Assembly: GCA_944320745.1 (NCBI GenBank)
Contig: CALUIN010000038.1
Coordinates: 1-56,996 of the forward strand
DNA length: 56,996 bases
DNA from: an uncultured Alloprevotella sp.
GTDB taxonomy: Bacteria; Bacteroidota; Bacteroidia; Bacteroidales; Bacteroidaceae
Direction of reading: 5' to 3'
In this document: piece by piece, positions 12,970 to 35,007 of the stretch
Numbering within the stretch: the first letter of the stretch is position 1
How the letters are laid out: each line of letters begins with the position of its first letter
Program-made: the position numbers and the translations under genes
Notes under the pieces: generated by a model
Seen by the model: only the letters and a program-made list of their open reading frames with translations
Databases searched by the model: none
Told to the model about the DNA's origin: nothing

Positions 12970-13003
12970 AAAAAGGGGGAGAAACCCTTTGGACTTCTCC
13001 CCC
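12970..13003 (-). terminator. Terminator of the fasciclin/SusCD operon
   Basis: GGGGGAGAA at 12975-12983 pairs with 12995-13003. On the minus strand it is followed by TTTTT (complement of 12970-12974). It lies 18 nt behind the stop codon of the last gene of the eight-gene operon. Confidence 0.85.
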
Positions 13004-13021
13004 AGTGCGTCAAATCGAGAA

Positions 13022-15193
13022 TCAATATTCAGGATTCTTCAGATACCAGTTATCAATGTTAAGCAACTTGTTGTAGAGCGCGCTGTTGTAGATGTTGGGC
13101 TGCTCGTACGGCTTCAGGTTTTCCGAACGGCGGGCAATCATCCACGCGAACCACTGCGTGCCATAGTTGGCAGGCAACTCACCCCAGTTGTCGTTGTTCT
13201 TGTGACGGGCCATGCGCAACAGGTCGAAGTAGCGGAAGCCTTCGAAAGCCGTCTCCAAGGCCATTTCGTCGGCGATCAAAGTCTCAACGGCGTTGATCTG
13301 CAGACCAATATCCTCGGGCATCTTCGGTTCGTCAGCATCTTCAATGGGCCAGCCTTCGTGCGGATCATCGCTCTCGCCTTCTCCGCCTTCACCGGTCTCG
13401 CCTTCCTCTCCTTCAGCCAGGAGCTTTTTAGCATAGGCCTGTACAGTCTGGAGATTGCCGGAACGCTGAGCTTCGTCAAGCATACGCTGCGCTACCAGCG
13501 GCTCATAGTCATAGAGCGTGTCGTAGTCAGACGTTGTGCCACAGCCACCCTCGTGGATACCCATGTTCACCCAATACGTCTGGCTGAAGTCAAGGAATTC
13601 GGGATGACGCTCGGCACGACGTAGTTCGTCAACGTCAATGTAGTTGCAGCCATCGGCAACGGGCACCGTGTAGGGCACGATCTTACCCGTCTGGGTCTCC
13701 TCGTTCCAAACGATGGAATCGTTACGCACCTCGGGCATTTCCTCGTAGTTAAGACCATTGCGAAGGATGGCGAACGCATGTCGGGGATAGCCGGCACGGT
13801 TGATGGCCTCGGCAAAACGCAGCATCACCTGACGCAGACGGTAAACGGGGATCACGTAGCTGAACGAGAAACTGTTCTCGCTGACAGCATAGTTCGTGGA
13901 ACGCATGGAGGGGGTGGCAAACTTGGATACGAAGTACAGACGGCCCAGGTCCGTGTTGACTTCGTTGACGGAACCGCTCAAACGGCCGTCGCCGACATTC
14001 TCCAGATATTCTACGCCCGTAATCTGGCCTTGATCGCCATACTCGGGATCCTGCTGCAGCTGCGCGTTGCTCAGGTTGAGATACTTCTGGGAAGGACCGA
14101 TCTGGCGGTTGCGGTAGTTGGCCGTCACGGAGATCTGTCCGGTCGTGGTTGCGGTCTCGTTACCCTCGTCGTCAGTGCTACCCGTAGTGGAACTCGTCGA
14201 GGAGGGATCAAAGCCGTAAGTCTGCTGTATGCGTGTCAGCACCTGTCCGAAGCTGGAGTTTGCAGCAGAGGGGATGATCGTGATGTTCTCATTGTCGGAC
14301 GTCTGCCCGATGAAAGAACCTGCCCAGGAGGAAGCGCTGGTAGAATACGTTTCCTGACCGCCGGACATGCCGCTACGACTGAGGCTACGCATGTTCTCGC
14401 TGATACCCGAACCGCGATCCTCACATAGATCGTTGATATAAGTGTAGTAATAGGTGGCTGCACGCTCGTAGTCGGAGAGCGAGGCACCACGCAGCAGGTA
14501 GAGGTCACCCAGGACGAGGTCGCCAGGGAACGTCATGCGGCGCTGCGGGATCGACATGGAACCGTTGTTCATGCTGCCGTAGTCGGGCAGACCGTACAGT
14601 TTCTCGTAATTGTAGGCTTGCATCAACTCGTCGCCGAGCAGATCAAGGAGATTGTCGGGCGTAGCCCATGCCTCAGGATTGGTCTCCCATCCGGTGTTGG
14701 CATTGTCCACCGGCTGCGTGATAAAGGGAACGCGGCCATAGTTCTGGACCAGCTGCATGTAGGTCCATGCGCGGACCATCTCAACCTGGGCGAACTCACG
14801 GCGCATGTAATAGTTGTTGTTCTTGAGCGCCATCGTGTCCACACGGGCCAGGTAGAAATTGCACTGGTTGATGACCTTGTAGTAAGCCGCACGGTTGAGC
14901 AGACCGTTCTCGCCATCGTCCACCTGGACGAAGTTGGAAATGTCGGCTACCGTGTCGCTGACGTACATGGTCGTGTCGGCCAAGTCGCCGCGAAGGTCAC
15001 CCAGCAGGACGTTGTTCTCAATCATATCCTGAACATTACCCAGGATACCCAAATAGAAATTCACCGTATCGGTCCCATTGAAGTTCTCGACATAACGGTC
15101 CAAGTCGGGCGTCAGCATGTCCTCGCAAGAGGTGGTCGTGATGCCCAACCCCAAAAGGCCGATAAACAGACTTACTATCGATTTATTTTTCAT
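13022..15193 (-). CDS. SusD/RagB-type outer-membrane lipoprotein (second pair)
   Basis: A 723-residue substrate-binding lipoprotein that caps the SusC barrel encoded just upstream. The signal peptide ends in a lipobox with Cys23 (TTTSCEDM). Acidic residues directly after the cysteine agree with the surface-export signal of Bacteroidota lipoproteins. SusD-like alpha-helical repeats are visible (MVRAWTYMQLVQNYGRVPF, and AFEGFRYFDLLRMARHK near the C-terminus). It is longer than usual (500-650) because of two low-complexity inserts: a Ser/Thr-rich one around residues 324-347 and a Glu/Gly-rich one around 590-605. It is the last gene of the operon, 95 nt behind its SusC; the gap holds a stem-loop. 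The substrate is unknown. Confidence 0.9.
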   Translation of the reverse strand: MKNKSIVSLFIGLLGLGITTTSCEDMLTPDLDRYVENFNGTDTVNFYLGILGNVQDMIENNVLLGDLRGDLADTTMYVSDTVADISNFVQVDDGENGLLNRAAYYKVINQCNFYLARVDTMALKNNNYYMRREFAQVEMVRAWTYMQLVQNYGRVPFITQPVDNANTGWETNPEAWATPDNLLDLLGDELMQAYNYEKLYGLPDYGSMNNGSMSIPQRRMTFPGDLVLGDLYLLRGASLSDYERAATYYYTYINDLCEDRGSGISENMRSLSRSGMSGGQETYSTSASSWAGSFIGQTSDNENITIIPSAANSSFGQVLTRIQQTYGFDPSSTSSTTGSTDDEGNETATTTGQISVTANYRNRQIGPSQKYLNLSNAQLQQDPEYGDQGQITGVEYLENVGDGRLSGSVNEVNTDLGRLYFVSKFATPSMRSTNYAVSENSFSFSYVIPVYRLRQVMLRFAEAINRAGYPRHAFAILRNGLNYEEMPEVRNDSIVWNEETQTGKIVPYTVPVADGCNYIDVDELRRAERHPEFLDFSQTYWVNMGIHEGGCGTTSDYDTLYDYEPLVAQRMLDEAQRSGNLQTVQAYAKKLLAEGEEGETGEGGEGESDDPHEGWPIEDADEPKMPEDIGLQINAVETLIADEMALETAFEGFRYFDLLRMARHKNNDNWGELPANYGTQWFAWMIARRSENLKPYEQPNIYNSALYNKLLNIDNWYLKNPEY

Positions 15194-15231
15194 TGTCGTA
15201 TGTGTTACCTTATGGATGAAAGCAAACGGGC

Positions 15232-15266
15232 GGGCGGGTTCTCCGCTGAACGGGGCTGCCCCGCCC
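15232..15266 (-). other. Stem-loop between susC and susD of the second pair
   Basis: GGGCGGG at 15232-15238 pairs with 15260-15266, and a smaller hairpin (GGGGC with GCCCC) lies inside. No T-run follows. The 95-nt gap is the widest in the operon, so the structure may set the SusC:SusD ratio or protect mRNA ends; this is inference. Confidence 0.45.
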
Positions 15267-15288
15267 TCCGTTCGTCTGATTCGCAGTT

Positions 15289-18200
15289 TTACAAATTAAT
15301 CGTTACACCCAGGTTGAAGTTACGGTTCTGCGGGAGCATACCGGTATCAATGCCTTGGTAGAGAACGCCGGTGCCGCAGGAAACTTCAGGATCCTGACCC
15401 AGATACTTCGTTACGGTAAACACGTTGTTTGCTTCACCCCATACGGAGAGACCTTGCAGCCAGCTGAGGGTCAAAGGAATCTTGTAGGTGAGGCGCACCT
15501 TCTTGAGCTTCAGATAAGATCCGTCCTCAATCCAGCGGTCAGAGAAGCGCTCGTTGTTCACCCAAGCATCGTTGTCGGAAGCCATTGCACGCGGAATATC
15601 CGTCACCTGACCATTGTAACGCCACCGGTTTACGACAGCCGTAGTCTGGTTGTATATATTGTTGACACCCTCAAGCTGGGAACGCTGGTAGTTAAACACA
15701 TCATTACCCAAAGAGTACTTGAAGTTGACGTCGAGCGTGAGGTTCTTCCAAGTCAGGCTGGTATAGAAGTTACCGAAGATGTCGGGATTCGGGTCGCCGA
15801 TCTGTACCATGTCGGCCTCGGAAATCCAGCCGTCACCGTTCTGGTCGACGAAGTGAACGTCGCCGGCCATGAAGTTGCGGTAAGGATTCTGCGAGAGGCC
15901 CGTCGGGTAGCGCAGGTAACCGTACTTGCCGGCCGTAGAGGCTTCCGCATCGCTGGCGAAGACACCGGCCGTCTGATAGCCATAGAACACGCCTACAGGG
16001 CGGCCGACGGCGGTCAGGATGTTGTCCTGTCCGTAGATGGAGGAAGTGTATCCGTGCATAGTGGTGCGCGTGCCCGCTATCTCGCGGCCGTGCTCATCGA
16101 GCTGATAGCTTTCGATGTAGTTCAGGTCGGACTCGGGCAGGTCCGTCATCTCGTTCTTGTAGTGGCCGATAGTCAAGCCGCCCTCCCACTTCCAGTTGCG
16201 CGTGTTGAGGAATACGGCATGTGCGCTGAAGTCGATACCGGTGTTCTTCAAGGCACCGTCATTGGTCCACATGAAGGAAAGACCGGTAATGTCGCTGACT
16301 GCCTGACGGGTCAAGAGGTTGGTCGTCTTGGACCAGTAGTAATTCAAGCCCAAGGCCAGGCGGTTGTTGAACAGGCTGGTCTGCACGCCTACGTTCACGC
16401 GGTGGTTGGTCTCCCACTGAATCTTAGGATTCTGGATGTTGGAGAGGAAGAGACCCGTCGCGTTGTCGAGGAACTTGCCGTTCTCGAAGTAGGTACGCAC
16501 GGCATAGTAGTCCACGTTGTCGTTACCGCTCTCCTCGTAACCGGCAGAGAGTTTCAGGTAGTTGACGAAGGGCACATCGAACCAGGACTCAGAGGACATG
16601 AGCCAAGCTGCCTGCACAGAGGGGAAGAGACCCCACTTCACACCGAAGAGCTTGATGCCCTCGTCCGTCTCCGTACCGAAACGGGAAGAGGCCTCAGCCG
16701 TCACGCCGGCATTGAGGAAGTACTTGTTCATGTAGTTGTAGTCGGCATTGAAATAGTATGCCAGATTCATCCACTTGTCGCTCGTACCGCCGTAGTCCTT
16801 ATACTGGAGGCTCATCGTGATATTAGGCATCTTATCGTTGTCGTTGTTGTAGCCCGTGATGTAGCTGTCGCCATACGAATAAGAAGCCAGACGGAAACCG
16901 CCGATGAGGTTGATGAAGTGGCCGGCGTACTGACGCTTCCAGTCCACACGGAAATCGTTGAAGAGCGTGGTTTCCTTATTGAACTGTGTCTGCACAACGC
17001 TGCGCACATCGCCCAGGCCTTCTACGGGTTTGGCAGGAGTACCGTCGTTCGGCAGATAGTACTTCTCGTTGTTGCGGTTCAGGATATAGCTGAAGCGGTT
17101 GGAGATCGTGAGGTAGCGGTTGATCTGGTACTTGGGCATTACGTTGATCGCAAACTGCGTCTGCTCCTGGAAGTTCTTGTTGTCTCCCTGACCGTTGGAC
17201 AGGATCCAGAACGGGTTGACCAGACCTGCATAGCCGAAGGACTCAGCGAACCGATAGGGGTTGTTGGCATCCGTATAGTTCTTTCCGGAATAAACCTTGT
17301 CGGTATGTCCCAGGTAAAGACCATTGTCGTAAATCACGTAGTGAGAATACGGGCTGATGAACGGAGCCTGAATGAGTCCCAACACGTTAGGCGAAGAGAT
17401 ATTCCGCGTGGTATAGTCGGCTGCCCAGCCGTTGTCACGGAGATTGTAGGCATTGCGGGAGTACGAAATGTCCATCGCCGTGGTAAGATTCTTGAACAGG
17501 ACAATGTCCGTGTTGAATCGGATGTTCAGGCGATTAAAGTCGTTCTGCTCAGCCGTAGCATCTGCCTGAGAGTATCCCAGCGAAAGGTTGTACATGGCAA
17601 CATCGTCACCACCTTCTACGCTAACTTTATAGTTCTGCGTGAAGGCATCACGATAGAGGTCCTTCTGCCAGTCCGTATTATTGTGGTAAACCGGATAGAA
17701 GAAGTAGTTGGGATCCTCGTTCATGAAGGGCGGCACAGTCGTATTGTTCTTAAAATAGTCCTGAGCGGCCTGCGTCGTGCCAAGGAAGTCTGTCACGTAG
17801 TTACGGTACTGCGAGGCATTCATGACCTTGAGCAGCTCGGGCGACTGCTCGAAACCGCCGAAGGCGCGAATGTTAATGCGCGTCACCATACTCTTACCAC
17901 GCTTCGTGTTGATAAGGATCACACCGTTACCGCCACGCGCGCCATAGAGGGCCGTTCCGTTCGTCAGCACCTGTACACTCTCAATGTCCTCCGTATCAAT
18001 GATATTGAATACATTGGTAAAGAAACCGTCGTGAAGCGTCGTGCGGTCATACTGCATATCCCAGACAACTCCGTCGACTACGACCAGCGGCTGCGCATTG
18101 ATGTTCAGGGAGTTCATACCGTTGATGAACATGGCTGCGCCTTGTGCGGGGAGACCGCCGCGGGAGATGGTGCGGACAGAGGAGTTAAGCTGATTCTCCA

Positions 18201-18699
18201 CGTCGTTCTCTATGGTCAGTGCGCTGGAATTGTCCACGAGCATTTCAGTCTCGGGGAAAATAGACGTACCGTCCTTATACAGACTCTTCAGAACGCCGGA
18301 ATACAGGCTGGCATTCTGGTCCTTGTCGCCCTTGATGGCTATCTGTACCGGGTTATAGTCCGGCACTGCAATGTATAATGAGTTGACAAAAGTAGGCACC
18401 TTGATGGTGTACGCGCCATTGTCGTCGGTCAGTGCGGTATAGTAACGGTTGTTCAGTGCCTGTACCTGCACACCGGCCAAGGGCTGAAGCGTGGCTGCAT
18501 CGTAAACATGGCCAGAGACCTCCTTCATCTCGTACTCCGGCTGCGCGGACTTGCGGGCGACAACCGAAGAAGTAGACGCTGAGTCGGCTGATTCAGACGT
18601 AGTCTGAGCAGACAGGACGCAGGATCCCGACAACATTAACAGACATACGCCTGTGCGCAAAGCGCCGTGCATCAAATTGTTTCTTCTATTCTTATTCAT
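15289..18699 (-). CDS. SusC/RagA-type TonB-dependent outer-membrane transporter (second pair)
   Basis: A 1136-residue outer-membrane beta-barrel that imports a substrate with energy from TonB. From the ATG at 18697-18699 there is a signal peptide ending near VLSAQ, then a carboxypeptidase-regulatory-like domain (VSGHVYDAATLQPLAGVQVQ), then a plug domain with the SusC hallmarks PLVVVDGVVW and VLTNGTALYGARGGNGV, then a long barrel ending in NFNLGVTINL. The upstream TTG at 18721 would only add an untypical leader. It lies 30 nt behind a fasciclin gene, in the same operon as a first SusC with which it shares only family-level similarity, so the two pairs are not a recent duplication. The substrate cannot be read from the sequence. 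Confidence 0.94.
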   Translation of the reverse strand: MNKNRRNNLMHGALRTGVCLLMLSGSCVLSAQTTSESADSASTSSVVARKSAQPEYEMKEVSGHVYDAATLQPLAGVQVQALNNRYYTALTDDNGAYTIKVPTFVNSLYIAVPDYNPVQIAIKGDKDQNASLYSGVLKSLYKDGTSIFPETEMLVDNSSALTIENDVENQLNSSVRTISRGGLPAQGAAMFINGMNSLNINAQPLVVVDGVVWDMQYDRTTLHDGFFTNVFNIIDTEDIESVQVLTNGTALYGARGGNGVILINTKRGKSMVTRINIRAFGGFEQSPELLKVMNASQYRNYVTDFLGTTQAAQDYFKNNTTVPPFMNEDPNYFFYPVYHNNTDWQKDLYRDAFTQNYKVSVEGGDDVAMYNLSLGYSQADATAEQNDFNRLNIRFNTDIVLFKNLTTAMDISYSRNAYNLRDNGWAADYTTRNISSPNVLGLIQAPFISPYSHYVIYDNGLYLGHTDKVYSGKNYTDANNPYRFAESFGYAGLVNPFWILSNGQGDNKNFQEQTQFAINVMPKYQINRYLTISNRFSYILNRNNEKYYLPNDGTPAKPVEGLGDVRSVVQTQFNKETTLFNDFRVDWKRQYAGHFINLIGGFRLASYSYGDSYITGYNNDNDKMPNITMSLQYKDYGGTSDKWMNLAYYFNADYNYMNKYFLNAGVTAEASSRFGTETDEGIKLFGVKWGLFPSVQAAWLMSSESWFDVPFVNYLKLSAGYEESGNDNVDYYAVRTYFENGKFLDNATGLFLSNIQNPKIQWETNHRVNVGVQTSLFNNRLALGLNYYWSKTTNLLTRQAVSDITGLSFMWTNDGALKNTGIDFSAHAVFLNTRNWKWEGGLTIGHYKNEMTDLPESDLNYIESYQLDEHGREIAGTRTTMHGYTSSIYGQDNILTAVGRPVGVFYGYQTAGVFASDAEASTAGKYGYLRYPTGLSQNPYRNFMAGDVHFVDQNGDGWISEADMVQIGDPNPDIFGNFYTSLTWKNLTLDVNFKYSLGNDVFNYQRSQLEGVNNIYNQTTAVVNRWRYNGQVTDIPRAMASDNDAWVNNERFSDRWIEDGSYLKLKKVRLTYKIPLTLSWLQGLSVWGEANNVFTVTKYLGQDPEVSCGTGVLYQGIDTGMLPQNRNFNLGVTINL

Positions 18700-18729
18700 C
18701 TTCTTCAATTTTAAAGTTAACAAGAACGC

Positions 18730-20535
18730 TTATTCTTCATCGCGCACCGGCTCAAGTATAACCTTGGCTATACTGAGCGCATGGCAGTTACCACGGCGCT
18801 GCTGTGCATAGGTCATCGTAAGACGAAGGTAGGGGAAGCTGCTATATCCGGAGGGGAGCGAATTGTAGGATTTCTCTAACTCAATGTCGTCCCAAATCAC
18901 GATCTTGGAAATGGAATCCTGAGGTACAGATATATTGTTGACAGCTGAACCGATGCGGTCACCATCGTCGTCGAACAACTCGGCGTTGAAGATAGGCGCT
19001 TCTACCTCTTCATTGCCCTCATTGTCATATGTGATATTACCCAAGTTCACACGGTTCGGCAACATCTGAACGGAAATTTTGTAATGACCGCTATAGACGT
19101 AATCCAAACGGAAATTAATACGCAAGGGGTTGTTACCGTCGACAACGAAATACTGATAGTAGTCGTCCTCCACTTCGCCGCTAACCTCCGGATTGCGGTT
19201 GTCAGAATTTAACTCGATCATCGTACCGTAGTCAGTGGTTGCACCGGTCACGCTGGCAAGGTTATTACTGTAATAAGCCGGCAATTCGCGGCGAGTGATA
19301 AACGTATAGGCGGGATCGTAGGTGTACGTATCAACCGCGAAGATATAACCATTGGATGCGCGCACAGGAGCCTTGCCACCGAACAGCGGATTCGGCTGGC
19401 CGGTACCTGCCAACGGATTGTACAGAATCATGTTGTTCGTCGTAATCAACGAGTCGGCATAGAGCACGTAGTTGATAACCGCGGCGGAGTCAGTACGGTC
19501 AATGCTGCTGAACGTAGCCGGCGAGATGAACATAGACTGTATGATGCCACTGTACGTGGACAACTCCGTCAACGAGTCGGTATTGAAACGCAGTGCGTCA
19601 GACCCGGTGTAAAGGAAGCTGTTCGAGCTCTGCTGCCACTCGTAGTTGTAACTGTCACCATAGCGGTACAAGGACGAAACGGTCTGATAGGCACCATCCC
19701 AAGCGTTGTTGGTCGGGATAATGGCGATATACAAACTGTCCTCGTCGCTCACAGAAGCCAGAGACGGATCCAGAATCTCGTTAGACGTCGTGAACACGGA
19801 ATCCACATACTCCATCTGGCCATTATCATTCATAGCACCCTCCGTGCTGGAGCTCTCGTTGAAAATGCGGTTCTCGTGAGCGTAGATAACGCTGTAGATT
19901 TTGGTAAACATCGAGTCGTTCTCCATATAATCATAAAGATTATAGGCGAAGGGCGACATGCCGTCCAAGACATGCAGCATACCATTAGAAGCGTTGATAT
20001 TTGCCATCTGGGGATCGATAGGCACATTGTTGAACGTGCCGGCAGCTGCGTCGTAATAGCTCAGCTTGGAGTTCATCATGCGAACCTGCTGACGCGAAGC
20101 CACGGACTCGTAGTTGAAACGAGCTATGTGGTTGCGCGCAAACTGGTTGGACACTTGGAAATCAATCTCACGCGCTGCCACTGAATCTGTGAGACGCAAC
20201 GCATCTGCCTGATCGAGCAGATCGAGATAATGACGGGCGTTATACGTCCCGTTCTTGGGCGCCCAAACAGTCAATTCCTGCGGCTGGTCAAGAAGCTCGG
20301 CATAGGTCTGTTTCTGGCCTTTATCGGTCTCGTCCTTCATGACCTTTGCCCGGCTGAGAATCATTGCTAAGGAATCCAGCTGAGGCGTCTCCGCAATGTT
20401 TTGCCAAAGCGTCTTGCTGCCGGAAACCGTTCCGGTCTGGATGTCGAAGTGGTCGTCGGTACATGCGCTCAGACCAAAGAGCAAGCCTGCTCCCAGCAGA
20501 CATCCTGTAATTCTATTGTGAAATAAATTTTTCAT
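18730..20535 (-). CDS. Fasciclin-domain surface lipoprotein (fourth fasciclin gene of the operon)
   Basis: A 601-residue lipoprotein from the ATG at 20533-20535, with lipobox LSAC followed by TDD. The N-terminal 200 residues look like a divergent FAS1 domain: LTVWAPKNGTYNA stands for the H1 motif and NASNGMLHVLDGMSPF for H2. A second FAS1-like segment may follow (SLYIAIIPTNNAWDGAY and later SNGYIFAVDTY). The C-terminal part (about 440-600) is beta-rich, with FRLDYVYSGHYKISVQMLPNR, and recalls the C-terminal domain of the two fasciclin genes upstream. It lies between those genes and the second SusC. A role in surface binding is inferred from the fold and context. Confidence 0.8.
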   Translation of the reverse strand: MKNLFHNRITGCLLGAGLLFGLSACTDDHFDIQTGTVSGSKTLWQNIAETPQLDSLAMILSRAKVMKDETDKGQKQTYAELLDQPQELTVWAPKNGTYNARHYLDLLDQADALRLTDSVAAREIDFQVSNQFARNHIARFNYESVASRQQVRMMNSKLSYYDAAAGTFNNVPIDPQMANINASNGMLHVLDGMSPFAYNLYDYMENDSMFTKIYSVIYAHENRIFNESSSTEGAMNDNGQMEYVDSVFTTSNEILDPSLASVSDEDSLYIAIIPTNNAWDGAYQTVSSLYRYGDSYNYEWQQSSNSFLYTGSDALRFNTDSLTELSTYSGIIQSMFISPATFSSIDRTDSAAVINYVLYADSLITTNNMILYNPLAGTGQPNPLFGGKAPVRASNGYIFAVDTYTYDPAYTFITRRELPAYYSNNLASVTGATTDYGTMIELNSDNRNPEVSGEVEDDYYQYFVVDGNNPLRINFRLDYVYSGHYKISVQMLPNRVNLGNITYDNEGNEEVEAPIFNAELFDDDGDRIGSAVNNISVPQDSISKIVIWDDIELEKSYNSLPSGYSSFPYLRLTMTYAQQRRGNCHALSIAKVILEPVRDEE

Positions 20536-20558
20536 TTGTGTATGATAATTTTTTGATT

Positions 20559-22658
20559 TTACCATATATCTTCTGGCTGAGGACCATTATAAATCTGTGT
20601 CGGCACATATTCAAAATAGTCCATGAAGAACTGCGCGTCCGTTTTCCTCAAAGCAGACTTGAAGCGGAAATAGTACGTCTTATCCGCCTGCAAGTTGGCA
20701 ACAGTTATGATACGACGTATGGCAGCATAATCACCGCCCCGCTGGCGGACCGGCGTGTCGGCCTTGCCGTTGGTCATCATAAAATACTGTGGCCCCTTCA
20801 AGTAGCCCATGTTTCGCAAGTTCTTTTCGTTTTCTGCATTTACAGCATTGTCCTCCACATCTGCGACCCAGGGTATTTCAGGATTACTCTCGCTCACCGT
20901 TTGCCGCTGGTCAAAGGGGAGACCAACAGGCGAAAGGCGCAAGGGATCGTCGCCGAAATAAATCTGGACCATACCACGCATGCTATTCAGGCTTACACCC
21001 ATGCGCAACTCGTACGTTCCATCCTTGGGAACCGGCGGAATGCGAAGCACTATGTCATACAGACCCGTGAACATCAATTCGTCGCCTTGAAAGTCATTCC
21101 AACTGGAGCCATCCGGGGACCACGCGGATGACAGATAAAGGATCCGCGTGTCATTGGACTCGTTCAGAATGTTGTCGAAGTAACCGTTGGGAAAACGCGT
21201 ATATTCTCCGCCTCGGTTATTATTCGTAGCAAGTTCCGGCAACATGGTTGCAGCGTCAATGCGGATACGCTCTCCGCCCAATCTGGATCTCGTAGTCTCA
21301 TCATAAAGCAAAATCTTATTGATGGGATAGTAGAAACCATTCTGAGCATTGTTATCGTACTCACCATTGGCTGCGGAGATCAGGATACCGGGGTCAGTAA
21401 CTCCGACTTCCGAATAATCTCCATCCCTGCCATTATTATAGACAGAGAACCTGTTCACGTAAATCTTATGATCCAAATCGTGCTCAAAACCGGCGTCGCC
21501 GACCTGAGTAATCTTGATCAGACCGCGATACTTACCCATGGTGGTATAATAGTCCCACACATTGGTCGGCATCTGCTGCGTCTGCGGATTACGCTTGTCG
21601 CCGTACATGTAATTGTACTCATTGTAGTGACTGACAAAACGGTCGTAAGCCATTCTGCCGTACAATAAATGATAAGCGACGAAGCGATTGACCGCATTAT
21701 CAGGACTGGTCAGATCGTCGTGATCTTCAGTACCATAAACGGCCTCACAACGCTGACTGATGATTTGCATCACTTCATCCCAGTTGGATACGTTTCCTTC
21801 AGCATCTGTCGACAGCTGAATGCCCCACTCTTGTGCGTACACCTCATCGGGCTCTACGAAAGCAGTAAAGCCGATGTAACGGCGTTGAGCAACCTGGAAT
21901 GTTCCCGGTACGCCGCTCTGCGTGTACGTCTCATCATGGTCTTCCTCTTCATACTCGACATCGCGGTCCTGTACCAAGGAATCTGCCCAGCTTGTCTGCT
22001 GCAACAGATATGTCATGATTTTCATGTTGCCTGCACTGCCAATCATATCCGCCAAGCTCTCTGAAGAAGGAGCAATTACAGCATCGACCTCATGGATCAT
22101 GGCATTGGATACTTCATGGTCCGAAGACAACACGCGGGAAGTGCCGTTTATCAGATAGTAGCTATCACCTTCTTCTTCAGACTCAAAGGAGCACGACAAA
22201 AGTCGGTCGTTCAAGTTGGACAAAAGGAAAGTGCCCGGTGTCGGGAAATCGCTGGTCTCGTAAGGACTATCATCCTTGTTGTCGATGATGCAGCTGTTAG
22301 CCACCAACTGAGCCTGCTCGTAGGACATCTGGCCCACCGAGGCAAGACCTAAAGTCTGAAGATAAGCAGCGACGGCATCATTGTTCGGCGCAAAGATAGT
22401 ATAGTTTCCACGCGAGGACAACACACTTGTCAGCGATGAAGCGTTATCTGCATTTCCTAAGCGGACGCGGTCGAATATGGCTTTGATGCTGGAATATTTC
22501 TCCGGATTGTTGGCGAAATAGTCAGAAGCAGTTTCCTCTGTCGCAATGGCAAAGTTATCCGTACTGATGTCTTCCGTACAACCTGCGAAAAAGACTCCAG
22601 TCAGCAGCATCAGGAAACATCCTAACACATTATTGAAGCGGCAAATCAAGCTCTTCAT
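20559..22658 (-). CDS. Fasciclin-domain surface lipoprotein (third fasciclin gene, tandem duplicate)
   Basis: A 699-residue lipoprotein, signal peptide with lipobox FAGC followed by TED. The FAS1 domain (about 50-225) has a clear H1 motif YTIFAPNNDAVAAY and an H2-like SNAMIHEVDAVIAP. A second FAS1-like region follows (RRYIGFTAFVEPDEVYAQEW, NAVNRFVAYHLLYGRMAY). The C-terminal 230 residues form a separate beta-rich domain ending FEYVPTQIYNGPQPEDIW. It is about three quarters identical by eye to the next gene upstream (22680-24785) over its whole length, including an identical 9-residue C-terminus, so the two arose by tandem duplication. The role is unknown; surface exposed by prediction. Confidence 0.88.
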   Translation of the reverse strand: MKSLICRFNNVLGCFLMLLTGVFFAGCTEDISTDNFAIATEETASDYFANNPEKYSSIKAIFDRVRLGNADNASSLTSVLSSRGNYTIFAPNNDAVAAYLQTLGLASVGQMSYEQAQLVANSCIIDNKDDSPYETSDFPTPGTFLLSNLNDRLLSCSFESEEEGDSYYLINGTSRVLSSDHEVSNAMIHEVDAVIAPSSESLADMIGSAGNMKIMTYLLQQTSWADSLVQDRDVEYEEEDHDETYTQSGVPGTFQVAQRRYIGFTAFVEPDEVYAQEWGIQLSTDAEGNVSNWDEVMQIISQRCEAVYGTEDHDDLTSPDNAVNRFVAYHLLYGRMAYDRFVSHYNEYNYMYGDKRNPQTQQMPTNVWDYYTTMGKYRGLIKITQVGDAGFEHDLDHKIYVNRFSVYNNGRDGDYSEVGVTDPGILISAANGEYDNNAQNGFYYPINKILLYDETTRSRLGGERIRIDAATMLPELATNNNRGGEYTRFPNGYFDNILNESNDTRILYLSSAWSPDGSSWNDFQGDELMFTGLYDIVLRIPPVPKDGTYELRMGVSLNSMRGMVQIYFGDDPLRLSPVGLPFDQRQTVSESNPEIPWVADVEDNAVNAENEKNLRNMGYLKGPQYFMMTNGKADTPVRQRGGDYAAIRRIITVANLQADKTYYFRFKSALRKTDAQFFMDYFEYVPTQIYNGPQPEDIW

Positions 22659-22679
22659 ATGCGCTGATCGTTCAAGATT

Positions 22680-24785: not shown

Positions 24786-24811
24786 AATCAACATAACAAG
24801 ATACATTCACA

Positions 24812-26680
24812 TTAATTGGAAGAATAACGCTCCCAAACGGGGTTCTGCTCCAACTGACCTCCATATTCAACACCATTGACGCGAAGTTCTTCGCTGTAAA
24901 TCGGGTTGTAGAGAGCCCAGATGGTACGCATGCGCCCGCGCACAGCCGAAGCAAGGGTGATGTAGTTCTGCAGCACCTCAGGCGGGTCGTTAGTAGCCTC
25001 ACACTGACGGACTATGTCGAACCAACGCTTGCCCTCGGTAACGAACTCACGCTGGCGCTCGTAGTAAACCATAGTCAGAAGTTCGCCTGCCGTATGGCCA
25101 TTACCTGCCGTAGCGTAATCTTCGTTCAGACGGTCCGAACGCAGGTCGGAGGAAACCGAAGTATTCGTAGTCGGTTCGAGTGCCGGATTGGAACGATCGA
25201 AGAGCGCGTTGCAAAGATGGAAGCCTTCGTTTACATTCTCGTCGTTCTTGGCATTGGTCGTGGAAGCGACAGAACGGGCAATTGCCTCAGCCTTAATCAA
25301 CATAATATCCGACAAGCGGTAAACCGGCCAGTTCGCATTGTTCGTACCGCTATAGTTACTGCTTGAGATACCCTCCGTCATATCCTCCAGATTGCTTATG
25401 GACAAGCTGGAAACAATGTTCTTATGCACAGGGGGTTGAGAAGCATTTGCGGTTGTGTAGTTAAACGTCTCAAGCAGACGGATGTCTACCTTACCGAAAC
25501 CGCGCTCAGGAGCGTAGGTTGCAGATGCAGAACCGGTCAAAGCATTGTTGCCCACCATATACTCGGGTACCAAACCGTTATCCACACTGCTGAGGTAAGT
25601 ACGAATCGTTGAGTTGACAGTGTTTACTCCATCATACTGCAATTCGAAAATAGACTCAGTGGAGTTCTTCGACACCCAAAGAGAATTGTAGACATTGTCG
25701 TAAACATTCTCATGTGCGAACGATGTCACGTACGTCAGATAAGGATAACGTTCATTCTCCGGTGCTGACATACCAGGATTTTCGTCCAACAGCTCGTCAT
25801 AGTCCTGCTGGAAATAGGCCAGACATGCGTCTGCACACTCAATAGAACGCTGGAAGCAGTCAGCACTCATGGTATTCAGAGAATCCGTAGCCAGAGTGTC
25901 ACCGGCGGCATTCGTCATCACGTCTCCCTTTGCCGTAGAGTTCAGCAACATACAGCCTTGCCACAAGTACATATCGGCCATGAGGGCATAAATGCTACGC
26001 TTGTTAAAGCGACCCTTATTGTCCGAATTGTTGCCATAGTCCTCTGCGGCATACGTAACGGCCTCCTCCAGCTGCGACAGCAAGTCGTTCAGAATCACGA
26101 CACCCTGGGTGGCAGCCACACGGCTGTTCATGGCCTCCGCATCAGTCGTAACTGATTTCGTAACGTAGGGTACGTTGCGGAAAGAGCGCACAAGGTAGAA
26201 ATAATAGAGCGCGCGGAGAGAAATCATCTCGGCCTTGATAGGATTCCAATCGCCGCGGCGGAAACTGGGATCTACCTCATTGCCAGGCTCAGTCATCGCT
26301 TCGCCGTGCTCCAGCACCTGGTTACAATAGTTTATGCCGGTATAGAAGGGTGCCCAGTTGAACATATCCTCCGTAGGTTGCAGGATGGCTTGCTGCAAGT
26401 GCTGGATGTTTGTCTGGGTCATGTCGTTCAACGAGAGGTTGTCCGACCGCAATTCACCCCAGATCAGGATTCTTGATGTCACATCTGCATCGGTCATTTT
26501 CTTATACGCCGCAGAACGGACATTGTCCAAGTCGTTTTTGTCCTTCCAGAAGTCGTCTTCTGTGATGCTGTTCGTCGGAAGGACGGTCAGATAGTCTTCG
26601 CAGGACGTCATACCCATGCCGAAAAGCAGGCCAACGACAAGGAACAACCGATTATAAAATTTCATATTCTTCATTTTCAT
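24812..26680 (-). CDS. SusD/RagB-type outer-membrane lipoprotein (first pair)
   Basis: A 622-residue substrate-binding lipoprotein. Signal peptide with lipobox GMTSC, then EDYLTVLPTNSITEDDFWKDKNDL, a typical SusD mature N-terminus. The helical TPR-like core shows in LRALYYFYLVRSFRNVPYVTK and KRSIYALMADMYLWQG, and the C-terminal REFVTEGKRWFDIVRQCE is a strong SusD family motif. It starts 6 nt after its SusC stop codon, as expected for a SusCD pair. It has normal length, unlike the extended SusD at the end of the operon. Confidence 0.95.
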   Translation of the reverse strand: MKMKNMKFYNRLFLVVGLLFGMGMTSCEDYLTVLPTNSITEDDFWKDKNDLDNVRSAAYKKMTDADVTSRILIWGELRSDNLSLNDMTQTNIQHLQQAILQPTEDMFNWAPFYTGINYCNQVLEHGEAMTEPGNEVDPSFRRGDWNPIKAEMISLRALYYFYLVRSFRNVPYVTKSVTTDAEAMNSRVAATQGVVILNDLLSQLEEAVTYAAEDYGNNSDNKGRFNKRSIYALMADMYLWQGCMLLNSTAKGDVMTNAAGDTLATDSLNTMSADCFQRSIECADACLAYFQQDYDELLDENPGMSAPENERYPYLTYVTSFAHENVYDNVYNSLWVSKNSTESIFELQYDGVNTVNSTIRTYLSSVDNGLVPEYMVGNNALTGSASATYAPERGFGKVDIRLLETFNYTTANASQPPVHKNIVSSLSISNLEDMTEGISSSNYSGTNNANWPVYRLSDIMLIKAEAIARSVASTTNAKNDENVNEGFHLCNALFDRSNPALEPTTNTSVSSDLRSDRLNEDYATAGNGHTAGELLTMVYYERQREFVTEGKRWFDIVRQCEATNDPPEVLQNYITLASAVRGRMRTIWALYNPIYSEELRVNGVEYGGQLEQNPVWERYSSN

Positions 26681-26686
26681 GGATGA

Positions 26687-29600
26687 TTAGAAACCAATGT
26701 TCAAGCTCAACGTAAACGAACGCGAACGCGGGGTCTGAGAGTCATCGTAGCAGGGAAAGTAGCCCGACTGGCTGTGGTCAGGATCCGTACCGGAATACTT
26801 GGACCAGAAGATCAGGTTGTTACCGGAAGCGGAGAGACGCAACGTGCTCAAACCGAACTTCTTCAGTTTCTCAGGCTGGAAGTTGTAGGACAGCTGGAAG
26901 TACTGGAAGCGGAGATAATCACCGGGCTCAACGTAACGGTCGCTGATCAAGGCATTATAGGTATTACCGTTGGATACATTCGTACTCATGGCACGCGGGA
27001 TCTCAGTCACCTGCCCGTTCGTTCTCCAACGGTGGTTAACTGCTGCGCTCTGATTTCTGTTGGTACGCATGTTCTCTGCGTTCATGCGGGCCAGGTTTAC
27101 AATCTTACCGCCGACACGGAAGTTGAAGCTCGTCTTCAGCTGCCAACGTCCATACGTCAGGTCGATACCGAAACCGCCGTTCACCTTCGGGTTGGAACCG
27201 CCGAGGTAAACAATATCGAGCTCGTTGATCTGACCATCGTGGTTAATATCTTCGTAAATGACGTCACCGCCTTCGAAGTAGTAGTTCACACCACCATAGT
27301 TGAACACCATCTGCAAGGGGTCGCCGTTCTTGTCGTAAACCACATTACCGTTGGCATCGAATACAATCGGCGCTGTCTTACCCGTAGCACGTGCCGTATT
27401 ATATATATTGCCATTGGCATCGGGTTCCGTCAGATAGTACTCATTGTCCTCCGGGTTCAGGAAGTAACCGTTGTGCTTGTAGTCATAAGCATAGACACCC
27501 TTGTAGCGGAAACCGTAGATACCGCCGAGAGAGTGGCCAATCTGGACGCGGCGAAGCAGGTCGCTGTAAGCATCGACATTCTCGTAGTTGAAGTCTGCAT
27601 TCTGCGTAGCGAGCACAGAGGCATCCATATCCGTCACCGTGTTGATGTTCTGAGCGATGTTGAAGCGGAGATTGGCATGGAACTTACCGAACTTCAGAAT
27701 GTCGCCGGTGTTCACATACAATTCCCAACCTTCATTCTCCATCGTACCGACGTTAGCCCAAGACAACGTAGAGAAACCCGTGGAAGAAGGAACGCGTACG
27801 CCGGAGTTCAACAAGTCGGACGTCTTCTTCTTGTAAATATTCAAGTCGAAGCGAATCAAGTCGTCAAACAGGTTCAAGTTGAAACCCAAGTTCCAAGACT
27901 TCGTCTTCTCCCAGCGAATCTCGGTCAGTCGGAGGTTGGACGGTGCGATGGCCGAAACACCGGCATACGAGCCAATGGAAGAATAGTTATTGTAGATCAG
28001 TCCCTCCTGGAAAGAAGAGTTACCGGTGATACCCCAACCCGGACGGAAAGCCAACATGCTGATGACCTTGCGGAGGGGACGGAAGAACTCTTCGTCGCTG
28101 ATATTCCAACGGCCGGACACGCCGGGGAAGAAACCCCACTTGTTACCGCTACCGAACTTCGTGCTACCATCGGCACGAATCGTAAAGTCGAAAGAATACT
28201 TGGAGCCGAACGAATAGTGCAACGAACCGATACCACTCATCGTGTGACCCTTACCCGTGCTGGTAGAAGCACCTGTCTGATAACCCGGAACCGTAGGATC
28301 CGTGATACCGCCACTGATACCGGACGAACTCAGGTACTGCGTCGTGTTGGAACTGGAACCCACCTCGAAACGGGCCAGCACCTGGAGGCTATGATCCGGA
28401 TTCACAAAGTACGGGCGGAACACCAAAGAGTGACGCGTCTGGAAGTCGAGCGACTTATACTCTTGGTTAGAGGTCAAGTCGATACCACCCTGCACAGACC
28501 AAGGACTGGAAGTCAATTCTGAAGGATAGTAAGAATTTTTCGTTTCGGTATAGGCATTCATGTACACCTCACCCGTATAGTTCAGCTGGGTCTCATCGTC
28601 AGCCTTTCCTAACAGCTTGTATTCCAGAGAGAACTGCGGAGTAATGGTATAGGTGGACCACTTGCGCCATGCAAGGTTACCGATGGCTACCGGGTTGCCC
28701 AAGTTAACCATGTCGCGCAGATAATAGGAAGAACGGTTACTGTTGTTGGCCAACATGCCAGCTGCCGCAGCGGCGGGGGGCATAATATAGTATTCACCCG
28801 TGTCAAAATAATAGCCGGTGCCGTCCGGACGACGGGCATACTCGTAGCGCGTCACGGACATGTTAGGCATGGCCTGGTAAGCATAGCTCAGCAGGTAGTC
28901 GTCGTAGTTCTTGTTGTTCTTCGTATAGGTCAATGCGAAGTTGGAAGAGAACTTGATACGGTCGGATACCCAATAGTCCAAAGCCAAACGTGAGGTGAAG
29001 CGGTCGAGCGACTGCTTGATCACTGTACCCGTCTCGTGGTCGTAGCTGGCAGAAACGCGGAACGTAGCTTTTTCGCCACCGCCGGAAATTGCCAGACCAT
29101 AGTTATGAGTCTGACCGAACTGCGTTACTTCGTCCACCCAGTCTGTATTCTTGTTATAGTTCTCATAATAAGCCGTATAGGTAGGCAAATACTGCAACTC
29201 GACGATGTTATCGGCAGGGTTGCTGGCCTCAGGGTTCGGGTTGTGGTATGCCTGCTTCAGCATCATGGTGTACTCGTCACCGTTCAGGAGCTTCATGCCC
29301 TCGGGCTGCCAAGAACCGGAGAAACGATAGCTGAAGTTTACGCGGGTCTTACCACGCGAACCACGGCGTGTACGGATTTCAATCACACCGTTAGAACCGC
29401 GCGCACCCCAGATAGCGGTGGCGGCAGCGTCCTTCAACACGTTAATGCTCTGAATGTCTTCGGGGTTCACCTGCAACAGCGTGGCGAACTTCTCCTCGTT
29501 CATGTCGTTGGCATCGAACTCCTCCGTGTCGTAGTCCTCCAAGATGTAGCCGTCGACAACGATCAACGGTTCTTGGCTACCATTAATGGAGGTAACACCA

Positions 29601-30130
29601 CGCAGACGCATACTCGTACCGGAACCCAGGTTACCGGAGTTGCTCACAATATCCAGACCGGCAATCTGTCCCTGAAGGGCTTCACCTGCCGTCTCGAAGG
29701 AGAGGCCCTGCATCTCGTCCATGTTCAAGGACTGCTGTGCGACGGAGATCTCTCGTTCAGGAATGGTCAAACCATTGGATTTCAACTTTCGGGTTGCCGT
29801 AACGGTAGCCTCACGGAAGGTATTCTTGTCCTTCAGCTCAATACGGAAAGTCGTCGTCGAACCGATGGTACGGCGCTCCGTCCCGTAACCGATATAGGAA
29901 ACCTGTAATACATTGTTCGGATTGCCCGTGGTCTGGAGGGAGAAGTTACCGTTGGCATCCGTCTGCGTGGCACGGACGGCACGGTTGGACTTATCCATCT
30001 CAGCCACATTAGCCATCACGATGGGTCCGTCGTTCTGACTCCAGACATGACCCGTGATTCGCTTTTGTGCCAGCGCCACCGAAAAGCAGAAGCACAAGGC
30101 TAAAGTCAATAAATATTTGATGTCCTTCAT
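26687..30130 (-). CDS. SusC/RagA-type TonB-dependent outer-membrane transporter (first pair)
   Basis: A 1147-residue transporter with a cleavable signal peptide (ending near ALAQ), a carboxypeptidase-regulatory-like domain (about 23-105: ITGHVWSQNDGPIVMANVAE), a plug domain with PLIVVDGYILEDYD and INVLKDAAATAIWGARGSNGV, and a barrel ending with LSLNIGF. It has no extra N-terminal STN signalling domain, so it should not signal to an anti-sigma factor, which fits the lack of such a regulator nearby. It lies 10 nt behind the four-domain fasciclin gene and 6 nt before its SusD. Confidence 0.96.
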   Translation of the reverse strand: MKDIKYLLTLALCFCFSVALAQKRITGHVWSQNDGPIVMANVAEMDKSNRAVRATQTDANGNFSLQTTGNPNNVLQVSYIGYGTERRTIGSTTTFRIELKDKNTFREATVTATRKLKSNGLTIPEREISVAQQSLNMDEMQGLSFETAGEALQGQIAGLDIVSNSGNLGSGTSMRLRGVTSINGSQEPLIVVDGYILEDYDTEEFDANDMNEEKFATLLQVNPEDIQSINVLKDAAATAIWGARGSNGVIEIRTRRGSRGKTRVNFSYRFSGSWQPEGMKLLNGDEYTMMLKQAYHNPNPEASNPADNIVELQYLPTYTAYYENYNKNTDWVDEVTQFGQTHNYGLAISGGGEKATFRVSASYDHETGTVIKQSLDRFTSRLALDYWVSDRIKFSSNFALTYTKNNKNYDDYLLSYAYQAMPNMSVTRYEYARRPDGTGYYFDTGEYYIMPPAAAAAGMLANNSNRSSYYLRDMVNLGNPVAIGNLAWRKWSTYTITPQFSLEYKLLGKADDETQLNYTGEVYMNAYTETKNSYYPSELTSSPWSVQGGIDLTSNQEYKSLDFQTRHSLVFRPYFVNPDHSLQVLARFEVGSSSNTTQYLSSSGISGGITDPTVPGYQTGASTSTGKGHTMSGIGSLHYSFGSKYSFDFTIRADGSTKFGSGNKWGFFPGVSGRWNISDEEFFRPLRKVISMLAFRPGWGITGNSSFQEGLIYNNYSSIGSYAGVSAIAPSNLRLTEIRWEKTKSWNLGFNLNLFDDLIRFDLNIYKKKTSDLLNSGVRVPSSTGFSTLSWANVGTMENEGWELYVNTGDILKFGKFHANLRFNIAQNINTVTDMDASVLATQNADFNYENVDAYSDLLRRVQIGHSLGGIYGFRYKGVYAYDYKHNGYFLNPEDNEYYLTEPDANGNIYNTARATGKTAPIVFDANGNVVYDKNGDPLQMVFNYGGVNYYFEGGDVIYEDINHDGQINELDIVYLGGSNPKVNGGFGIDLTYGRWQLKTSFNFRVGGKIVNLARMNAENMRTNRNQSAAVNHRWRTNGQVTEIPRAMSTNVSNGNTYNALISDRYVEPGDYLRFQYFQLSYNFQPEKLKKFGLSTLRLSASGNNLIFWSKYSGTDPDHSQSGYFPCYDDSQTPRSRSFTLSLNIGF

Positions 30131-30140
30131 GATATTATAA

Positions 30141-33100
30141 TTATTTTCTTATTCTGTACTTCGCCGTGAAAGCCTTAGCCTGTGATGTCGTTGCCCATGC
30201 GTCATCGTAGCGACCAGTGGCCGAGAGCGGCGCGAAGTCAAGCACGTGGTTCACTTGGTGAATAACGACGTAGGAAGAGTACTGGAAACTCGTCGGAATA
30301 GCACTGCCACTGCTATTAAAGTTCATGTCGCGAGCCAGGACATTATAAGGCTCTACCACATTCTGCGTCAGACCGTTATTGTCGGTTACGGCAAGCGTGT
30401 TGGGCGACTGCTTCACGTGGATGGAGAGGTAAACATTATTGACATTATCAATACATGAAGTCTGATAGTCATTCTCGTTGTCTACATCGTCCACATAGTA
30501 AGCACCATCCTGGAAGTGATACTTCAGGAAGTTTATCAGCATCGTAATCATGGCCTGTGCTTTTGCCTGATTCTCAGGAGAAAGCGTAGCGTTGCCATCC
30601 TCATCTTCGCCTAGATTGTTGGTTTCGATGAAGTTATGGATGTCGTCATACGTTGGCAGGCCGCGGGAAATGGCCTCCTGGATGGCAGCATTCGTCGGGG
30701 CATAGATTGTATAACGGTAGTTATTGAAGAAACGCACCAACTGCTCGTTGGCTGCGGGGTTCATGCCCGTAGCGGTAAAGATACGATACTTGTTCTGCTC
30801 GGAAGCCCAGTCGGCCTCATCAACGCCTTCATCCAAGCCGGCAGCCTTAAGGTCACTTTCAGAGAAAGAAGCCTGACAGAGCTGGAAGAAGTCAGAATAA
30901 TTGTCGGGATTGTTAGTAAAAACGTTCCAGACGGAACGGGTCGTAGGCTGCATGGGGCGGTCGAGCAGGTAGGTCTTACCGTTACCGTAACCGTTGCTCT
31001 CCTGCGTCATGTCATAACCTTCGGTCACCGTGCAATCGTGGTCATTATCAGGATATTGGTCCTGATTCAGTTGGATCTGGAAACCGCCGTCCACTTTCAT
31101 GCCGACGTTATTGTCTTCAATATTACCGCGATCCTTCACATAGACGGGAGCTCCGCCGCGGGAAGTGAAGTACTTGCGGCGTGCGTTTACGCCTTGGTCG
31201 TTGTCGGCGTCCTCCGTGTCGTGAACCACGATGTGCTGGTCAATCATGTCGATAAGCAACGTGCGCTTCGTCAGACCGGCACCGGTCGTCAGCGAACCCG
31301 TCGGGTCGGACTGGTTGTTATTTGTACCACCGGCCGTCTGGCGCACATCGGTCTCAGGATTCTGACCGGTCTCCATGTTGTAGCGATAAGCCTCTGCACG
31401 GATCGGGAGCACAGCACCCGGCGCGTTGCGATAGACGAAACGCCAATATTTATATTGTGAAGCTTGCGCGATGTTCTTGGAAAGTGACATCGGGTCAACG
31501 TAACCGTAAGTAGACAGACCGTCATCCGTCGGCACGAAGAACGAGAAGCGGGACTGCATGGCCTTGAGGTAGGTGCTGTAGTACTTCTTCAACGGTGCGC
31601 TGTTGTAAGAAGTACCTTCGATATAGTTATCATCCGCACGGACAACGGCACGCACGACAGTCGTATTGGCAGAATAGAGCGCCGGGGCGATAACCGAAGC
31701 GTAGTCGGCCGGGGTAATCACACGGTCAAGCACGTAAACCACACCGTTGTTGGCCAGGAGAGTCTTCACAATGTGTCCCTCATAATTCTGCTGCGTGGCA
31801 AAGTCAGCGTTCGTTGCCGGGAACATCTGGTCCTGGGCATCGTTCATGATGGTCAGGTACTTGCTGGGCACTGACTCCAAGAACGAGTCCTTCATCAGGT
31901 TGTTGATGAGGGCCTGAAGGATGTCCAGAGGAATCTGGTAGAGGTTGTACTCCAGGTTCTCCGCTGTGTTGGGCCGCTTGGCATAGCGCTCCATCAACAC
32001 GCGACCACCGCCGTTGACGAAGTACTCCTGCATGGCCTCATCCGTCGGCACAAACATGGCACCCATATCCTGCTCCTTGGGAATGGAGGAACTTACGGCG
32101 TACTCGTTCCAACCCGGATCGTAGGTCAGCAAGGGCACATTACCCAAAGAGTTGCCGTCGAAGTCGACAGACAACTGCGCATTGCCCTGCGAACGGGAGG
32201 AGAGATAACGCTTCTCGTAAACGGAGTCCATGCCAATGTCATGGAGCGCACGGTACTGATCGGTCAGCTCGGCATTGTAGTAAGGAGCACTGAAACGGTC
32301 CAGCATTTTGCTGAACAGGTTGGTCTGCCCGTTGGTACGAATCACCTCAGCCATGTTGGACGGAGTCACGAGGACGGAGTCCAGCACGTTGATGTAACCG
32401 TTCATACAGGTAATGTCCTGTTCCACAATGCGGTTCCCGTAAATGTATGCACGGTTACCACCTTCGCTACCGTCAGCCCAGGGGTCCTTGTTGCCCAAGA
32501 TGAAGCTAATGTCGGAGTGGCGGATGTCCCGCTCCTGCATCTGCTCATCCAGGAAGTGGACCATCATCGGCGACGTGGCATCGAGCGCCATGTAAATACC
32601 GCCACGGGCCGGCGTACGGAAGCGGTCCCAAAAGCGGGTGTCACCACTGACATTACCCTCAGCGTCAGTCTCCGGCTCGTTCAGGTTGTTAGGCAGTTCG
32701 TCCCAGCGCCAATAAGCCACACTGTCGACAGCCGACAGCTGCGTGCTACGACGCATCGTCAGACTTCCGCCTCCGGAGGAGTAGGGCAACATTTCGAGCA
32801 CATCCGCATTGTTCAGCATTGCGCCATACAAGAGGATGCTCTTCTGCGCCGTGGACAGCTGATCGTAGCTGCGGATCGGATTGCCGTTGCCGTCCGTCCA
32901 CGTCGTAGTGGCGAAGAACCGCGCGAAGGCATCGTCGTCCGTAACGAAAATCGTCTTACTACCAGTCTGCGACATGACATCCCGGTAGTTCAAGTCATCG
33001 ATCAACCGAATCACGGTGTTGAAATTCCTTGCCTTCAACTCGTCATAAATACTTCCGCCCAGGAAACTCGGCATCGTTTCGTCGAGGTCGTAGTCGTCTG

Positions 33101-33185
33101 AGCAAGAGTACGTAAGACCGCAAGTCGAGAGCAAGCACATTGCGCCAAGCAATGATTTCCCCATTCTGCTAAAACGGTTTTTCAT
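30141..33185 (-). CDS. Large multi-fasciclin surface lipoprotein, first gene of the operon
   Basis: A 1014-residue lipoprotein from the ATG at 33183-33185, the start that gives a compact signal peptide (MKNRFSRMGKSLLGAMCLL) ending in TYSC, followed by SDDYDLDE, a strongly acidic surface-export signal. About four FAS1-like domains can be traced: H1-like motifs SKTIFVTDDDAFARFF, GAMFVPTDEAMQEYF, FSFFVPTDDGLSTYG and YTIYAPTNAAIQEA, and H2-like NGYINVLDSVLVTP, NGVVYVLDRVITP and a last HQVNHVLDF. An in-frame ATG at 33230 would lengthen the leader by 15 residues. FAS1 domains mediate adhesion in other systems. Being first and largest in the operon suggests it is the main surface-exposed part. Confidence 0.88.
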   Translation of the reverse strand: MKNRFSRMGKSLLGAMCLLSTCGLTYSCSDDYDLDETMPSFLGGSIYDELKARNFNTVIRLIDDLNYRDVMSQTGSKTIFVTDDDAFARFFATTTWTDGNGNPIRSYDQLSTAQKSILLYGAMLNNADVLEMLPYSSGGGSLTMRRSTQLSAVDSVAYWRWDELPNNLNEPETDAEGNVSGDTRFWDRFRTPARGGIYMALDATSPMMVHFLDEQMQERDIRHSDISFILGNKDPWADGSEGGNRAYIYGNRIVEQDITCMNGYINVLDSVLVTPSNMAEVIRTNGQTNLFSKMLDRFSAPYYNAELTDQYRALHDIGMDSVYEKRYLSSRSQGNAQLSVDFDGNSLGNVPLLTYDPGWNEYAVSSSIPKEQDMGAMFVPTDEAMQEYFVNGGGRVLMERYAKRPNTAENLEYNLYQIPLDILQALINNLMKDSFLESVPSKYLTIMNDAQDQMFPATNADFATQQNYEGHIVKTLLANNGVVYVLDRVITPADYASVIAPALYSANTTVVRAVVRADDNYIEGTSYNSAPLKKYYSTYLKAMQSRFSFFVPTDDGLSTYGYVDPMSLSKNIAQASQYKYWRFVYRNAPGAVLPIRAEAYRYNMETGQNPETDVRQTAGGTNNNQSDPTGSLTTGAGLTKRTLLIDMIDQHIVVHDTEDADNDQGVNARRKYFTSRGGAPVYVKDRGNIEDNNVGMKVDGGFQIQLNQDQYPDNDHDCTVTEGYDMTQESNGYGNGKTYLLDRPMQPTTRSVWNVFTNNPDNYSDFFQLCQASFSESDLKAAGLDEGVDEADWASEQNKYRIFTATGMNPAANEQLVRFFNNYRYTIYAPTNAAIQEAISRGLPTYDDIHNFIETNNLGEDEDGNATLSPENQAKAQAMITMLINFLKYHFQDGAYYVDDVDNENDYQTSCIDNVNNVYLSIHVKQSPNTLAVTDNNGLTQNVVEPYNVLARDMNFNSSGSAIPTSFQYSSYVVIHQVNHVLDFAPLSATGRYDDAWATTSQAKAFTAKYRIRK

Positions 33186-33254
33186 ACGCATTAAATCATT
33201 TAAATATCTATTTTTTCTGTTCGATTTCATTTTACACACCCCTGTGAATAGGGA

Positions 33255-33262
33255 CAAAATTA
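33255..33262 (-). promoter_or_regulatory. -7 box of the fasciclin/SusCD operon
   Basis: Reads TAATTTTG on the minus strand, a perfect TAnnTTTG match 69 nt before the ATG at 33185. A TTG occurs 23 nt farther upstream, slightly too far for an ideal -33 box. No other strong promoter was noticed inside the eight-gene operon. Confidence 0.55.
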
Positions 33263-35001: not shown

Positions 35002-35007
35002 TGGGTG

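Follow-up and report, generated by a model that had tools for sequence, protein, structure and literature searches.

A block of fasciclin-domain lipoproteins and two SusC/SusD pairs in Alloprevotella: a probable two-channel glycan capture-and-import module, here free of enzymes

What could be the function of a gene block that encodes four lipoproteins of the fasciclin (FAS1) type and two complete SusC/SusD pairs, and no enzyme? The question is raised by the window, i.e. the whole stretch of 56,996 nucleotides analysed here (contig CALUIN010000038.1 of assembly GCA_944320745.1, from an uncultured Alloprevotella sp.). Near matches that bear a name are Alloprevotella rava, Prevotellamassilia timonensis and uncultured Alloprevotella. 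Its minus strand carries, from 5' to 3', FASbig, SusC1, SusD1, FASa, FASb, FASc, SusC2 and SusD2, and all eight open reading frames (ORFs) were confirmed, as the first-pass annotation of the sequence had listed them. We consider it probable that this block is a conserved outer-membrane module for the capture and import of a glycan through two channels, here in an enzyme-free form.

The families of the eight products are mostly straightforward. Both SusC exceed the TIGR04056 cut-off (654.5 and 558.1 bits) and both SusD those of Pfam; FASa, FASb and FASbig exceed the Pfam Fasciclin cut-off, which places them in the FAS1 family. FASc gave no Pfam match up to E 0.1: its membership comes from the comparison of its family profile with that of the FASab family, to which FASa and FASb belong (98%, E 2e-13), and from its predicted model, which shows a FAS1 fold. 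The four FAS1 domains first read in FASbig are retained in part, one being firm and the three others based on weak profile matches and motif pairs. Searched against PDB sequences, relatives of FASab and FASc found FAS1 proteins and a few weak unrelated chains, and FASbig weak FAS1 matches only. The lipoprotein signals are conserved across the module proteins, and so are the acidic residues remarked behind the cysteine: at least two are present in 46/52 FASab, 47/52 FASc, 36/52 SusD1, 40/52 SusD2 and 28/51 FASbig—the latter an undercount, the script having picked an earlier cysteine in some. This pattern is consistent with a display of these proteins at the cell surface.

In the predicted models of FASa and FASc, the two FAS1 proteins modelled, the C-terminal domain is a beta-sandwich resembling carbohydrate-binding modules (CBMs), with a fold of the CBM84/CBM35 kind. 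Among the matches listed for both models are FAS1 proteins and beta-sandwich domains; the best CBM-like ones include a domain of xanthan lyase (6f2p) and MiXBM (7ehg), besides BT0996-C (7zvo) and CBM35, and they are numerous and tied in score. These domains, and the position of relatives of the block in pectin-degradation loci described below, make glycan capture a better reading of the FAS1 proteins than an adhesive or layer-forming role. Capture of a protein and the building of a layer, both initially envisaged, are less probable.

Is this arrangement peculiar to the window? The search for a co-occurrence of FAS1 lipoproteins with SusC/SusD, suggested by the first-pass annotation, found the gene order kept across many genera. 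We call module the seven genes FASbig-SusC-SusD-FASab-FASc-SusC-SusD, the window being a variant with FASab doubled (FASa and FASb). The full order occurs in 16 of 20 fetched regions, all 16 from the genus Alloprevotella/Prevotellamassilia (hereafter "the genus"); in two of these an end gene is truncated, and the remaining four regions are FAS1 loci without SusC/SusD or the third SusC locus. When 20 regions were picked from high-scoring FAS1 matches in other genera, 17 had the order as well (SusC being split into two ORFs in three of the 17, and the FASc slot assigned through homology in three, plus a Pfam match in one); so had 11/11 FASbig-bearing loci of a Bacteroides-like genus (one, L249, with broken frames) and, in six genomes belonging to other families, 7/7 such loci. 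Among the best 80 named FASab loci, 24 hold the whole module (two with a doubled FASab), seven are cut by contig ends and 49 have FASab without SusC. FASbig is present in 18 of the 19 genus genomes at least 90% complete (exception G043; 45/58 overall) versus 22/158 genomes of the Bacteroides-like genus and, of 395 genomes sampled from the class, nine, including three from the window's family; nearly universal in the genus, it is thus scattered elsewhere.

A tree of the seven concatenated protein alignments, built on 64 modules (duplicate genomes and modules with split or cut genes, including L091, L092 and L089 with its PL11, being omitted), gathers the 18 modules of the genus in a single clade with a support of 0.998. 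Over these 64 modules, pairwise distances calculated for each of the seven genes are correlated with one another (r 0.85–0.98), as expected if the seven genes travel together, species history alone giving high values as well. These data support the initial proposal that the two transporters would share one FAS1 set. As a separate observation, two divergent modules on one contig of genome G338 flank an integrase gene of the tyrosine-recombinase type (L253:17957–19132, L254:157–1332), which makes a DNA switching between modules possible.

The lack of enzyme deserves the same comparison. By Pfam, none of the eight genes encodes an enzyme, nor a peptidase; in the 27.8 kb flank of the window, BLAST against 16 reference proteins (most of them Pfam-annotated) found no reference carbohydrate enzyme or hybrid two-component system (HTCS), and a Pfam scan of 19 flank ORFs no carbohydrate enzyme beside the operon. 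The block has the adjacent SusC and SusD genes of a polysaccharide utilization locus (PUL), yet it is not a classical PUL, because neither its eight genes nor this flank hold a carbohydrate-active enzyme. When the same references were searched around 39 modules, with 11.7 to 39.8 kb of flank for each, the five genus modules, window included, gave no enzyme or HTCS match in any flank. By contrast, among the 34 modules outside the genus, a pectin-backbone enzyme (PL1, PL9, PL11, GH28 or GH105) was matched for 22 and an HTCS for 17. The absence of enzyme and sensor first noted is therefore true of the operon and its flank but not general: the enzyme-free state characterizes this genus and some relatives rather than the module itself. 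Of 78 unlabelled flank proteins (280–1150 aa, within 11 kb of a module) tallied with Pfam, 13 had GH28, 10 GH88/105 and three a BT_4170-like C-terminus. At L253 the gene placed 4 nt after the last SusD is near-identical to PDB 5olq, "Rhamnogalacturonan lyase" (1139 bits over 512 residues).

How would such a module work? Each of the two SusC channels would have its SusD lid, and both would be served by one common set of surface lipoproteins, made of the large multi-FAS1 protein and of FASab and FASc, which join FAS1 domains to a CBM-like domain. The FAS1 proteins would capture a polymer or oligosaccharide and pass it on to both SusC/SusD pairs, the import being powered by TonB energy. Where it occurs in Bacteroides-like genomes or in other families, the module might often operate within pectin-degradation loci, whereas Alloprevotella would have fixed an enzyme-free version, relying on enzymes encoded elsewhere or on fragments released by neighbours. 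More speculatively, the seven genes could be an old, self-contained importer of Bacteroidia in which the FAS1 lipoproteins bridge the two SusC/SusD channels into one physical complex, kept in Alloprevotella and its relatives as a lyase-free scavenger of glycan chains that others make or release; we propose this only tentatively.

Several points weigh against a glycan importer, or at least against a pectic one. Likeness in fold of the modelled C-terminal domains to CBMs is no proof of binding. Outside the genus, 12 of the 34 flanked modules are without pectin enzyme and four without any reference enzyme or HTCS. Pectin enzymes are associated with the module—as a control, 49 loci with a solo FASab gene (833 kb) gave one pectin-type match—but this control comes mostly from other genera, so that the association is not a strict enrichment. 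In the genus itself, PL1 and PL11 are found in 0/58 genomes each, GH28 in 5/58 (none in the window genome) and GH88/105-type genes in 9/58, the window genome giving one weak match (E 1.3e-7); as this genome (2.15 Mb) is only 84% complete, an absence from it is not firm. Lastly, the window falls in the Prevotella-like half of the tree, where five of the six flanked non-genus modules are without pectin enzyme, the sole exception being L099 (GH105). The substrate in this half may well differ from pectin.

The alternative that best survives follows from this last point: the subfamily of the window might have switched to another acidic, host or microbial glycan, its enzymes being encoded elsewhere in the genome. 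The neighbours found in this Prevotella-like half fit this idea, with HTCS in L096, L098, L090 and L103, an alginate-lyase-family protein in L096 and L098, GH31 in L098 and a GH95 match in L103; it is also in line with the xanthan lyase domain and MiXBM standing among the best CBM-like matches. On the other hand these neighbours come from six flanked modules only, and no enzyme is constant among them. We regard such a switch as a serious possibility, though not as the expected outcome. That the Alloprevotella module imports pectic fragments, of rhamnogalacturonan I (RG-I) or homogalacturonan, freed by other bacteria is slightly more doubtful. The pectin loci of its relatives do suggest it, but pectin as the substrate of the window is weakened by the genome searches for PL1, PL11, GH28 and GH88/105 as well as by the tree position, and CBM-like matches so numerous and tied do not single it out.

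Uptake of peptides in the manner of RagAB, with FAS1 proteins catching a protein, seems improbable: SusC-type transporters can import peptides, according to PMC7661554, and no glycan enzyme lies at the locus, but the eight genes include no peptidase, CBM-like domains are present and the relatives belong to glycan loci. Least probable in our opinion is an adhesion complex or surface layer with import as a secondary role, as adhesion alone hardly accounts for two complete TonB-dependent SusC, nor do the CBM-like domains and the pectin-linked relatives agree with it.

Turning to the organization of the block, several features support one operon-like unit. By the ORF list the intergenic gaps range from 5 to 95 nt, close to the 6–95 nt first given, with an overlap of 7 nt between FASb and FASc if the latter begins at its first ATG. 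The block is bounded by a strong terminator, found close to where it was predicted, and by a putative promoter whose motif, TAnnTTTG, we take to be a -7 box. This motif recurs at the matching position in most genus loci (Table 1; 18 distinct loci were counted, i.e. 19 rows minus one duplicate), occurs anywhere in 17% of mononucleotide-shuffled 300-nt upstreams taken as control, and is absent within 150 nt upstream of all seven internal genes of the window. The TTG start of FASbig in the ORF list, at 33257, falls within the box; according to the family alignment, translation begins with the ATG at 33185. Likewise, SusC2 more likely starts at 18699 than at 18723, and FASc may start, here too more likely, at 20535 instead of 20565.

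Table 1. Features of the block in the window, in the order of transcription
Feature	Positions	Strand	Basis
-7 promoter box TAATTTTG	33255..33262	-	same motif 70-120 nt upstream of FASbig in 15/18 distinct genus loci
FASbig, large lipoprotein; FAS1 domains: one firm, probably four in all	30141..33185	-	Pfam, family alignment for start
SusC1, TonB-dependent transporter	26687..30130	-	Pfam, NCBIfam
SusD1 lipoprotein	24812..26680	-	Pfam, conserved lipoprotein signal
FASa, two FAS1 domains and C-terminal CBM-like domain	22680..24806	-	Pfam, structure model
FASb, tandem copy of FASa, 76% identical	20559..22658	-	Pfam, sequence comparison
FASc, two FAS1 domains and C-terminal CBM-like domain	18730..20565	-	profile comparison, model
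SusC2, TonB-dependent transporter	15289..18723	-	Pfam, NCBIfam
SusD2 lipoprotein, divergent	13022..15193	-	Pfam, conserved lipoprotein signal
Intrinsic terminator, 13-pair stem and T tail	12975..13003	-	sequence

Downstream lie lpxD (11275–13022), lpxC/fabZ and lpxA-like genes. Next to these lipid A genes the module has a constant position on the chromosome: of 17 other genus genomes examined, 11 have lpxD within 4 kb after it, the gene was not found at L073 (12 kb of flank searched), and the remaining genomes had little flank. Upstream are a Rid/chorismatase-like gene, a radical-SAM gene, an extracytoplasmic function (ECF) sigma factor gene and an ATP-grasp gene of the purine type. The first encodes a 361-aa Rid-domain protein with a weak similarity to chorismatases and adjoins the radical-SAM gene, the pair lying just upstream of the operon (33916–35958); the sigma factor gene (36262–36843), 3 kb upstream, may be a regulator, and its scanned neighbours gave no match to an anti-sigma family. 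Farther away, 11 kb from the operon, a 749-aa protein (44237–46486) carries a GH25 domain and matches MORN weakly.

Genes of the FASab type also occur away from SusC/SusD: one in the window genome (contig C15, L082:7743–9854) and those of the 49 solo loci mentioned above (of the 80 loci L104–L183). No constant neighbour was apparent by eye around these 49; the eight neighbours scanned belong to CotH, GH2, lamin-tail, metallophosphatase or other families, or to none, and proteins of 1,480–1,800 aa are also met beside solo FASab genes. The solo proteins could be spare capture proteins for the importer of the module. In genome G064 two adjacent FAS1-type proteins (L081:3448–8170), likewise apart from SusC/SusD, have signal-peptide-like N-termini without lipobox.

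Import by SusC/SusD with the help of surface glycan-binding proteins is a known kind of system, and the pectin-linked relative of the module has probably been studied already, as an RG-I locus. In our literature search, which covered mostly open papers and few subscription ones, no paper named the module proteins as FAS1, mentioned this widespread module or its form without enzymes, or tied FAS1 proteins to this SusC/SusD set; one FAS1 protein is marked in a cellulose/hemicellulose-like PUL of Flavobacteriaceae in PMC4891872. The present work thus joins FAS1 "adhesion" domains and glycan import by SusC/SusD, usually treated separately. If our reading is right, FAS1 proteins would serve a widespread two-channel importer as standard subunits for glycan capture, many of the lipoproteins annotated as "fasciclin" would acquire a testable role, and Alloprevotella, with three SusC genes over the family cut-off in the window genome, two of them in this operon, would acquire a concrete feeding candidate.

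Compared with the FAS1 proteins of adhesion (TGFBIp, periostin, fasciclin I), those of the window are bacterial lipoproteins with an extra CBM-like domain, encoded with SusC/SusD. The C-terminal domain of FASa and FASc shares its fold with the domains of xanthan lyase, MiXBM, BT0996-C and CBM35 but is attached to FAS1 domains instead of an enzyme. Like PULs in general the block unites SusC and SusD with surface lipoproteins; unlike them, it has no enzyme or HTCS beside it and two SusC/SusD pairs share one FAS1 set. The closest likeness is the RG-I locus of B. thetaiotaomicron (BT4145–4183), where, according to the review PMC8002723, BT4164/65 and BT4168/69 are SusC/SusD pairs, BT4167 a surface RG-I-binding protein and BT4170 a lyase; BT_4163–4165 go down together in one mutant (PMC13088901). 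Two pairs around one surface protein, next to a lyase: the genes BT4163–BT4169 are arranged like the module, which most likely corresponds to them, judging from gene position and granting that BT4163, BT4166 and BT4167 would be FAS1 proteins. The module of L253, 4 nt from its BT_4170-type lyase, matches the gene order of this locus. The window differs from it in having neither lyase nor HTCS beside the block. A shared two-channel module, if our reading is right, would account for the two SusC/SusD pairs placed around one lipoprotein set in B. thetaiotaomicron.
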